Under the pieces are notes generated by a model. It was given only the letters and a program-made list of their open reading frames with translations, did no database searches and had not been told where the DNA came from. The translations under genes were made by a program, and so were the position numbers. From Acidobacteriota bacterium (GTDB lineage: Bacteria > Acidobacteriota > Vicinamibacteria > Vicinamibacterales > 2-12-FULL-66-21): 33,472 bases of DNA. The DNA is taken from NCBI GenBank assembly GCA_003222675.1, contig QHWT01000096.1, positions 1 to 33,472 of the forward strand, in the 5' to 3' direction. Positions 17,003 through 19,422 of this stretch are shown here, piece after piece (the stretch's first letter is position 1; each line of letters begins with the position of its first letter).

Positions 17003-17094
17003 CGGGCAACCGTTCCGCTACTCGCCACGCATTTCCTTCAATCGCCTTTTCTCTCTGAGCGGCGACGTGTCGCAGCGGATCTTGGGAGGATGTG

Positions 17095-17808
17095 ATGATC
17101 ATGCAGGCGCTGCTGTCGATCATGGCCGTGATGCTGTTGCTACAGGCCTCGCCGGCTGAACAGGCGGTCGTTCCCACGCGCGTCATGCCGCTGTTCAACG
17201 GCCGCGACCTCACCGGATGGAAGGCAGACGTTCCTGAAAAGGACACGAACCCGTCGGCGCCCGACAGCTTCATCGTTCGTAACGGCATGCTCGTCAGCCT
17301 GGGCACGCCAGGCGGTCACCTGCTGACCGAAAAGGCGTATCGCAACTACCGGCTCGAAGTCGAATATCGATTTGCCGGCAAGCCTGGCAACTGCGGCGTA
17401 CTCGTGCATGCGTCGCGCCTGCGCGCGCTGTACAAGATGTTTCCGCAGTCGATCGAAGTCCAGATGGAGCACGAGAACGCGGGCGACTTCTGGTGCATCC
17501 AGGAGAACATCGAGGTTCCCGACATGGAGAAGCGTCGCCCACGCAAGGAAGGGGAGAAGTGGGGAGGGAGCGAGGGCGATGCGCGGCGCATTCTCAACCT
17601 GACCGACGGTTCAGAGAAGCCGGTCGGCGAGTGGAACACGCTGATCATCGAAGCGCGCGACCGCGCGATCAAAGTCTGGGTGAACGGCGACCTGGTGAAC
17701 GAAGGCTTCAGGTGCACCGCCGACCGCGGAAAGATCGCGCTTCAGGCCGAGGGATCCGAGGTCGAATTCCGCCGCGTCGATATCGGGCCGCTATCGGTGC
17801 CGAAATAG
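17095..17808 (+). CDS. Secreted DUF1080 protein (3-keto-disaccharide hydrolase family)
   Basis: This protein of about 237 residues has a short signal (MQALLSIMAVMLLLQASPA) and the DUF1080 jelly-roll: MPLFNGRDLTGWKAD, SFIVRNGMLVSLGTPGGHLL, YRLEVEYRFAGKPGNCGVLV, QSIEVQMEHENAGDFWCI, GEWNTLIIEARDRAIKVWVNG and VEFRRVDIGPL. The family cleaves glycosidic bonds of 3-keto-sugars in the periplasm, often beside Gfo/Idh oxidoreductases, and one lies at 19423-20700. GGGAGGA ends 4 bases before the ATG at 17095; GTG 17092 and ATG 17101 are alternatives. The last nine codons and the stop lie inside the 136-bp tandem repeat, so its 3' end has been duplicated. Confidence 0.88.
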   Translation: MIMQALLSIMAVMLLLQASPAEQAVVPTRVMPLFNGRDLTGWKADVPEKDTNPSAPDSFIVRNGMLVSLGTPGGHLLTEKAYRNYRLEVEYRFAGKPGNCGVLVHASRLRALYKMFPQSIEVQMEHENAGDFWCIQENIEVPDMEKRRPRKEGEKWGGSEGDARRILNLTDGSEKPVGEWNTLIIEARDRAIKVWVNGDLVNEGFRCTADRGKIALQAEGSEVEFRRVDIGPLSVPK

Positions 17809-18064
17809 CAGCGAACGAGCATCGCGAGTGAGCCACGCGAGCGGCGCGGGGCCTGGGGCCCCGCTAGCGAGCGTGTAGGGGGGTCCGGCGGGGCGAAGCC
17901 CCCCGGAAGAAACCGATATCGGGCCGCTATCGGTGCCGAAATAGCAGCGAACGAGCATCGCGAGTGAGCCACGCGAGCGGCGCGGGGCCTGGGGCCCCGC
18001 TAGCGAGCGTGTAGGGGGGTCCGGCGGGGCGAAGCCCCCCGGAAGAAACCGATATCGGGCCGCT
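17778..18064. repeat. 136-bp direct tandem repeat, two copies plus a 14-bp third start
   Basis: The sequence beginning GATATCGGGCCGCT at 17779 recurs at 17915 and 18051, exactly 136 bp apart each time, and the two full copies look identical. Each unit contains the last codons of the DUF1080 gene, a palindrome (GCGGGGCC-TG-GGCCCCGC-like, ahead of TAGCGAGCG) and a second GC-rich hairpin (GGGGC-GAA-GCCCC type). The unit's inner part resembles dispersed REP-like palindromic repeats of high-GC genomes. The duplication lies between two convergent genes, and the reverse frame through copy 2 supplies the C-terminal tail of ApbE. Confidence 0.92.
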
Positions 18065-19072
18065 GCCACCCGCGACGAAGTAACGCCACGTCGGCGACGT
18101 CACGGTTCGGATCTCGTCTCCGTTGGCAACCGAGATCCTCGCCGCTGTACCGCGCGCCCGCGTGACGAGCGCAATCCCGTCCATGATGCCGAGCACCGAC
18201 ACAGCCGTCGCAAGGCCGTCCGACAGCGTCCCTCTGGGTGCGATGACGGTGACGCTGCGCCGGCCGGTCAGCGGCGCGCCGGTCCGCGGATCGATGATGT
18301 GCGAGTAGCGAACGCCGGCGATCTCCATCCATTGTTCCGCGTCCCCTGACGTCGACACCGCGGCGTCGCGAAGAACCACGCGAGGAGCAGCGCCGTGCGA
18401 CCGTAGATCCGCGACATCGATAGTCCAGCCACGTGAGCCGGGCGGAGCGCCTGCCGCGACGATGTCGCCGCCAAGCGCGACGAGCGCGCTGCGATAGCTC
18501 AGGCCTTTCAGAACGGCGGCCGCTTCGTCCGCCGCGTATCCCTTGCCGATCGCCCCGAGATCAACCTGCATCCCCGCGGCACGCAGATCGGCGGTGTGGT
18601 CGTGCGCGTTCAAGATCAGCTTGGTGGCGCCGGTCAGGGCGAGGGCAGCACGAATCTCAGCTTCATCCGGCCGCTCGCCGCGGCGCCGCGCGCGCCGCCA
18701 CAGATGCGTCAGCGGGCCGACGGTGACGTCGAACGCGCCGCGGCTGTCGCGCGCCAGCCGCTCCGAGGCGTCGAGCACGCGAAACAGATCGTCGCTGATC
18801 GGAACGGGACCGCTGCCGGCACGACGGCAGAGGCGCATCAGTTCGCTGTCCTCTCGATAGTCGCTCATGACGGCATCGAGCGCTGCGACGCGCGCAAACG
18901 CACGTGACGCAGCGTCGCGCGCTGCGTCTTCGCTTGCCGCGAACAGCACGATGCGCGCTTCGGTGCCCATCTGTCGCGAGGAGAATTCGTAGCGGGTGAG
19001 CGGGTGTGCGGGTGAGGCTGCGGCGGCGCCGACGAGCAGCGCCGCTGCAAGGACTGCCCGACGTTGTGGCAT
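17927..19072 (-). CDS. apbE: ApbE-family FMN transferase with a repeat-encoded C-terminal tail
   Basis: This 381-residue exported flavin transferase attaches FMN covalently to Thr of periplasmic or membrane redox proteins. It has a signal peptide (AVLAAALLVGAAAASPAHP). Conserved segments are SSRQMGTEARIVLF, MSDYREDSELMRL, GAFDVTVGPL, MQVDLGAIGKGYAADEA, YSHIIDPRTGAPL and SDGLATAVSVLG (the Mg/FAD-binding Asp and Thr region). ATG 19072 has GGAAAG 6 bases upstream. The natural domain ends near RYFVAGG (about residue 335). The last 45 residues are translated from the 136-bp repeat and match no part of the family, so the original stop has been lost. No flavin-accepting partner gene is visible nearby. 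Confidence 0.9.
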   Translation of the reverse strand: MPQRRAVLAAALLVGAAAASPAHPLTRYEFSSRQMGTEARIVLFAASEDAARDAASRAFARVAALDAVMSDYREDSELMRLCRRAGSGPVPISDDLFRVLDASERLARDSRGAFDVTVGPLTHLWRRARRRGERPDEAEIRAALALTGATKLILNAHDHTADLRAAGMQVDLGAIGKGYAADEAAAVLKGLSYRSALVALGGDIVAAGAPPGSRGWTIDVADLRSHGAAPRVVLRDAAVSTSGDAEQWMEIAGVRYSHIIDPRTGAPLTGRRSVTVIAPRGTLSDGLATAVSVLGIMDGIALVTRARGTAARISVANGDEIRTVTSPTWRYFVAGGSGPISVSSGGLRPAGPPYTLASGAPGPAPLAWLTRDARSLLFRHR

Positions 19073-19162
19073 CGACTGCTTTCCGAGCAACGAGCTAATC
19101 CGTGCTGCTTGTCACGTACGAATCACGCCGAGCGCGCAGAGCCCGCGGAGAAAATGCCTGCC

Positions 19163-19189: not shown

Positions 19190-19237
19190 AGCAGATCACG
19201 CGTGCGGAGAAGACAATTGAATAAGCGGCTGCGAAAC

Positions 19238-19256
19238 GGCGCTCCGGCGGAGCGCC
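19238..19256 (-). other. Perfect 8-bp hairpin downstream of the Gfo/Idh gene
   Basis: GGCGCTCC and GGAGCGCC flank a 3-base loop. It lies about 170 bp after the minus-strand stop at 19423 and lacks a T-run. It could be a 3'-end structure of the oxidoreductase transcript or part of the intergenic repeat. Confidence 0.4.
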
Positions 19257-19422
19257 CTCCGGCAACCCTTCTCGGCGCGCTCAGCGGCTTCGTGGCATTT
19301 CTCTCCATGAAATCGTCTTCTCCGCACATCACCGCCAGTAGCAGCGGACAACGCCCGAGCTCGGATGCGTGAATCTCATTTCCTGTCAGCGCGCACCGTG
19401 CTGACGATCGGTACACTCTGCA

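Follow-up and report, generated by a model that had tools for sequence, protein, structure and literature searches.

The region between a DUF1080 gene and a convergent apbE gene in an acidobacterial contig carries a tandem repeat into which the apbE frame runs, and this raises the question of which event gave ApbE its present C-terminus. In the window (the whole stretch of DNA that was analysed, 33,472 nucleotides), Tandem Repeats Finder places at 17778-18064 a repeat of period 136 with 2.1 copies and 100% matches (Table). A reading made from the letters alone (the sequence-only reading) had put this repeat between the two convergent genes, with the DUF1080 stop inside the unit; gene calls and Pfam bear out both points, the current stop lying in unit 1. 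The same reading was right about two identical 136-bp units and short by one nucleotide on the start of a third, which it gave as 14 bp and which extends to 15 nt (18050-18064) in the repeat search. A tandem, fully identical 136-mer is far beyond chance expectation. The 0 differences over 136 bp make a recent duplication plausible, with no date attached. The third copy of the 15-bp direct repeat appears to be the ungapped counterpart of a relative's DUF1080 end, and the repeat search reports no inverted pair in the repeat at its thresholds. Farther along, the interval from apbE to the next gene (19222-19290) contains many palindromes as judged by eye, the next gene looking Gfo/Idh-like on the same inspection.

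Table. Features of the DUF1080/apbE region, numbered from the first letter of the window
Feature	Position	Strand	Basis
DUF1080 gene (3-keto-disaccharide hydrolase family), now ends PLSVPK in unit 1	17092-17808	+	PF06439, E 2.6e-36
apbE gene, stop 17927-17929 in unit 2	17927-19090	-	PF02424, E 2.2e-77
Repeat unit 1, 136 bp	17778-17913	+	Tandem Repeats Finder and repeat search
Repeat unit 2, 136 bp, 100% identical to unit 1	17914-18049	+	Tandem Repeats Finder and repeat search
15-bp direct repeat, copy 1, within the DUF1080 codons for VDIGPL	17778-17792	+	Repeat search
15-bp direct repeat, copy 2	17914-17928	+	Repeat search
15-bp direct repeat, copy 3, start of third unit, CGATATCGGGCCGCT	18050-18064	+	Repeat search; relative comparison
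Element core, copy 1, about 97 bp	17811-17907	+	Best genome matches cover unit positions 34-130
Element core, copy 2	17947-18043	+	Best genome matches cover unit positions 34-130
Left hairpin, copies 1 and 2	17834-17875, 17970-18011	+	Alignment A1 columns 28-74, mapped by counting gaps
Right hairpin, copies 1 and 2	17885-17906, 18021-18042	+	Alignment A1 columns 85-106, mapped by counting gaps
DNA for the 40 new ApbE C-terminal residues, antisense through the element	17930-18049	-	In-silico unit removal
Most likely relic of the ancestral DUF1080 end; joined flanks read ...DIGPLPPATK stop	18050-18083	+	Relative comparison

Removal of units in silico separates the effect of the duplication from that of the insert. 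With two units ApbE has 387 aa and DUF1080 238 aa, and both are unchanged with one; without any unit the lengths become 358 aa for ApbE (tail SGPISTRRNSTSDPSA) and 239 aa for DUF1080. The two ORFs overlap by 70 bp without a unit and by 18 bp with one, and a gap of 118 bp parts them with two. Because ApbE is the same with one unit and altered only without both, it was the insertion that rewrote its tail, putting 40 residues in place of 11; the duplication merely moved the two ORFs apart and altered no residue. The sequence-only reading had attributed the new end of ApbE to the duplication itself, a view that draws on the position of the ApbE stop in unit 2 and that the identical one-unit ORF leaves with next to no probability. 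Its other claim on this point, that the apbE frame enters the repeat and gains about 45 residues, agrees with the 45 repeat-encoded residues past FVAGG, 40 of them unlike those inferred for the ancestral protein.

The ancestral state is indicated by a relative and by the flanks themselves. When the window's flanks are joined at the 15-mer, DUF1080 ends VDIGPLPPATK. Among the 60 genomes searched (the window's own included), the best apbE outside that genome is found in the same genus (genome G001, 69% identity), where a DUF1080 gene (locus L052, 83% identity) is convergent to apbE and the element is absent between them. The two genes overlap there, DUF1080 ending VDIGPLPAAAK and ApbE ending SGPMSTFRNSTSAPSA, a different and shorter tail with no insert; alignment with this relative thus bears on the ancestral stop, as had been proposed, and agrees with a repeat-derived tail in the window. 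A locus on an Acidobacteria MAG contig (L111), the only one of 80 DUF1080 loci with apbE beside DUF1080 in flanks of up to 4 kb, gives the same empty reading as L052, and the joined flanks of the window match it at 72.5% over 160 bp, position by position. Among eight DUF1080 homologue ends listed, four have the form IGPLP..K (L111, L112, L114, and L115), that of L113 is PLPPASR, near the PLPPATK of the joined flanks, and three (L116, L117, and L133) are not of the PLP..K form. The match with L052/L111 together with the joined flanks make 18050-18083 most likely the old DUF1080 end, the ancestral state resting on one outgroup, the single relative with the DUF1080-apbE pair, and on the DUF1080 homologues.

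The filled and the empty site and their effect on the two ORFs being established, the course of events that very probably links them is insertion of an element into the DUF1080/apbE overlap and then one tandem duplication via the 15-bp repeat. A two-hairpin element of ~98 bp, REP- or MITE-like and probably selfish, would have entered the 70-bp overlap with some adjoining DNA and given DUF1080 a new stop, with PLSVPK in place of PLPPATK. The apbE frame would from then on have crossed the element antisense and ended at a new stop, the 40 residues that replaced 11 being presumably tolerated rather than useful. The 15-bp direct repeat bordering the insert could then have permitted a single 136-bp tandem duplication (insert plus repeat) by slippage or unequal exchange, slippage being the presumed mechanism, and this would have parted the two ORFs with neither protein altered. 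That the insertion came before the duplication is likewise presumed. One part of the insert is not accounted for by simple insertion, namely its left 17 bp (ATCGGTGCCGAAATAGC), which are not element and are themselves like a DUF1080 end. Another reading is that recombination with a diverged DUF1080 allele brought in a segment composed of an alternative DUF1080 3′ end and the element; the 15-mer would then represent shared homology and not a product of insertion. The insert's left part reads LSVPK stop, like the IGPLP..K end of close relatives, and lies outside the matches found elsewhere in the genome; the likeness is nevertheless short and may be due to chance. Moreover, the genome has no close DUF1080 paralogue (the others show 30-39% identity over parts), and a genome-wide search that allowed up to 3 mismatches placed a 24-mer spanning the left end of the insert in the two units and nowhere else. 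Protein and 24-mer searches thus provide no paralogue in this genome as donor of the left end, and recombination from another allele seems unlikely. As for the duplication, the second unit could be an assembly error, the true genome having one unit or a variable number, as the 100% identity of the units and the draft state of the genome (152 contigs) would allow. The same assembly, however, resolves an array of five 114-bp units, and the usual assembly error for identical tandem repeats is collapse, not expansion, which makes such an error quite improbable here.

The core of the unit, judged from its sequence, is a dispersed two-hairpin element of ~98 bp. Against its own genome the unit has at least 58 matches at E ≤ 0.01, the two units included, which is a lower bound because 40 of 86 candidates were scored in this 152-contig draft. 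Matches outside the window cover the element part (unit positions 34-130). In the loci read from the window's genome, a profile has matches of 76 or more model positions at 31 places, and 8 others that are shorter (E ≤ 1e-4). Counting across the genome hence upholds the earlier suspicion that the inner palindrome is a dispersed element. DNA matches (E ≤ 0.001) occur in at least 22 of 60 genomes, own included, with at most 15 candidates scored per genome, so that these too are lower bounds. When 162 genomes of the order were searched with a profile of the peptide that the element encodes, 7 had matches (E ≤ 1e-6), namely the window's own genome, five more from its family, and G013. The copies of one locus (L033, G000:C22:122000-136000) cluster within a few kb, and this cluster shares stretches of about 75-92% identity with a cluster on contig C20 of genome G007, the contig that holds all 5 counted DNA matches of that genome. 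Three loci (L022, L023, and L024) carry a variant with the right half of the element and a different left half (CGGCGGGGCGCGCCC...GGCGCGCC).

The pairing of the two hairpins is conserved among copies. Over 32 copies from several genomes, RNAalifold gives 27 pairs, of which 11 show one or more double changes; covariation contributes little to the energy (-0.77 of -41.65 kcal/mol). For the 22 of these pairs that form the two hairpins (a small left-most hairpin was left out), 96.8% of cells are paired and changes on both sides occur in 9 pairs and 31 cells, whereas slid versions of the structure are 33-61% paired, with 2-3 pairs and 4-5 cells changed on both sides. None of 500 shuffles equals the observed pairing, both-side changes, or covariation score, and 14 of 500 equal the number of further pair types; because the alignment tested also supplied the structure, and its copies are related, these figures are not probabilities. 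Such compensatory changes bear out the REP-like palindromes that had been seen in the unit, in the sense of two hairpins. Folded as single-stranded DNA, one unit has a z of -2.5. Rfam shows no match to a known structured RNA up to E 1 (4227 models, 17500-18400). Selection for open frames is not supported, since on average 4.56 of the 6 frames of the element are open, below the 4.77 of dinucleotide shuffles, and a GC content of about 77% makes this openness no more than composition gives.

The element is also found inside proteins, where it encodes a peptide of ~34 residues of the form ANERxRVSHASGAGPGAPASERVGGxGGAKPPG. In TypA/BipA it lies in frame at the same place in the window's genome (L243, G000:C126) and in G008 (L244, G008:C36), that is, in 2 of 30 loci read, the other 28 being empty. 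As the same-genus G001 is among the empty ones, this distribution implies loss, transfer, or repeated insertion. Between the two genera the insert differs at 5, 7, and 5 nucleotides over the three codon positions (one sequence pair), whereas its flanks show 8, 1, and 37 and 10, 5, and 44 differences per 100 codons. The lack of codon-position bias in the insert, set against the bias of the flanks, suggests that the peptide is probably only tolerated, not selected. A Gluconate_2-dh3 protein of the window's genome, a gluconate dehydrogenase subunit, has a Pfam domain that spans the insert, and its orthologues are empty in G001, G006, G020, G021, and G025. In a DUF7133 protein of G003 the element is read antisense; each of the 11 further loci retrieved is about 29-42 residues shorter in the alignment, junctions compared in six loci (the window's genome and G001 included) contain no element, and some distant paralogues with 38-44% identity align straight across. 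Finally, an MFS_1 domain spans the insert in a POT transporter of G003, this span being the support for it. Of these four proteins, TypA, Gluconate_2-dh3, and POT share a common sense frame and DUF7133 has the antisense reading.

An automatic coding-frame test was applied to 64 distinct copies, 5 of which lie too near a locus end. Among the 59 scored, 4 are in the same frame and open (L105, L017, L228, and L221), 2 are in the same frame with a stop (L206 and L240), and 5 are on the same strand in another frame, counts that are a lower bound because the test missed L005, which has domain and orthologue support. Copies in L009, L011, L015, and L024 lie within long ORFs, and in L010 the end of an ORF with no Pfam match extends a few codons into a copy. 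Two sets of in-frame candidates were discarded: L045, where a Tat-like start opens with an ATG 13 nt beyond the element, and L294-L297, which are partial copies near ORF ends. The idea that the palindrome repeatedly supplies C-terminal tails does not agree with the copies inspected, which gave one clear tail (ApbE) beside in-frame internal inserts and many intergenic copies.

Tandem arrays bearing the element recur, with periods of 114 (5 units), 228, and 175 elsewhere in the window's genome and of 138 (G001) and 101 (G003) in relatives. Arrays of period 125 and 213 in the window's genome have weak or partial element matches only, and five more (period 72-123) among the loci examined have no element copies. 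The longest shared flank word of 52 copies averages 6.56, against a null mean of 5.24 and a null maximum of 6.46, and by simple arithmetic it falls to 5.2 without four tandem loci (36, 32, 12, and 11 nt). Target-site duplication as a general rule is not supported, there being no excess once these loci are set aside.

Copies often lie at gene ends. When genes were predicted with a simple codon score, the copy came within 16 bp of a gene boundary, or overlapped one by 1 bp, in 17 of 33 loci. Of 57 distinct copies, 25 have an ATG within a 14-nt window that opens 6 nt beyond the last GCCCC, and windows starting at 20, 34, 48, 62, 90, and 120 nt have one in 9, 10, 11, 2, 6, and 5 copies; at least three anchors (L110, L217, and L233) are inside the element, and some copies are orthologous or intragenic, so that the 25 cases are not all independent. 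In the near window CAT occurs in 4 of 57 copies, and an ATG-started ORF of at least 60 aa in the region past GCCCC in 19 of 57. Before purM the element occupies the same intergenic place in two genera (L235 in G003 and L222 in G008). One could read these data, together with the compensatory changes that maintain the structure, as signs that the element is kept for a function, for example as bidirectional terminator or 3′-end stabiliser of convergent genes, its doubling being selected. The near boundaries, the 25 ATG cases compared with 2-11 in the windows from 20 nt outward, and the shared place at purM would all fit, but survival bias alone would leave copies in intergenic gaps, and selection for such a function appears doubtful. 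Two genera also have copies at neighbouring places of a cytochrome oxidase operon (L083 in G007 and L085 in G008).

Among the closest described systems are the Rickettsia palindromic elements (RPEs), accounts of which describe dispersed hairpin-forming elements of 105-146 bp, found between genes and in frame in conserved proteins (PMC2229807, PMC10969869). The likeness is one of description: a short hairpin element that occurs between genes and also in frame within conserved proteins, the orthologues being empty for TypA, Gluconate_2-dh3, and DUF7133. It differs from the RPEs in its GC content, in having in-frame copies in both orientations, and in its lineage, whose nearest named records include Acidobacteria MAGs. 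Intragenic REPs and RPEs and C-terminal extension by a palindromic element are already known. A tentative view is that the present element is a mobile cassette harmless both ways, intergenic or read through in genes. It would then be a palindrome like the RPEs but independent of them, which remodels proteins in free-living bacteria and is still active, as the tandem arrays and the ApbE tail would suggest. If so, an intergenic cassette would sit just past a stop, and its CCGGA end would precede the next ATG by a Shine-Dalgarno distance; within genes the cassette would form a loop of ~34 residues in a favoured frame. The filled and empty sites (gene overlap, TypA) make it testable whether proteins are shaped by such inserts or just tolerate them. 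The local event is well explained and opens a view on what appears to be an undescribed family of elements in this lineage; no paper among the literature matches listed, a scope mostly outside subscription papers, deals with the element there.

Comparison with the other palindromic elements gives a mixed picture. REPs are described in part as palindromes near gene ends, with tandem reiteration together with flanking DNA and occasional intragenic copies (PMC3733652). Like REPs of the GTAG class, the element is a palindrome dispersed in many copies that often lie at gene ends, but its unit of about 98 bp exceeds the 20-40 bp of REPs, and GTAG, although present in the window's copies, is found in only 13 of 32 aligned copies, unlike in GTAG/CGTC-tagged REPs. 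Unlike MITEs it has no terminal inverted repeats, the consensus forming separate hairpins whose ends are not paired together; as for their target-site duplication, the window has the 15-bp repeat, and flank words show the pattern given above. QMITE2 of Coxiella is described as a palindromic element with 7-11-nt repeats that adds 33 C-terminal residues to EnhC (PMC5896051). ApbE likewise receives C-terminal residues from a palindromic element, but reads it antisense and in a former gene overlap, and direct repeats are not in excess beside single copies of the present element. No enzyme that would mobilise it was identified. The window's genome has 2 RAYT-type transposases, and 7 of 9 relatives have 15 matches between them; within up to 1.5 kb on each side a copy was found near 1 of 17 Y1_Tnp loci, about 1.2 kb away, and near neither of the two in the window's genome; the neighbourhood hence gives no support to RAYT as mobiliser, and the copies do not flank RAYT genes as RAYT-linked REPs do. 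As the GTAG tag, RAYT flanking, and terminal inverted repeats are not found as those families have them, the element is not filed among REPs or MITEs; it works like REPs, MITEs, or RPEs and is an apparently undescribed family of a known kind. Near the two RAYT-like Y1_Tnp genes of the window's genome (L031 and L032), other short repeats of GTGAGTGTCACC type and GGGGTCAGACCCC type are seen by eye.
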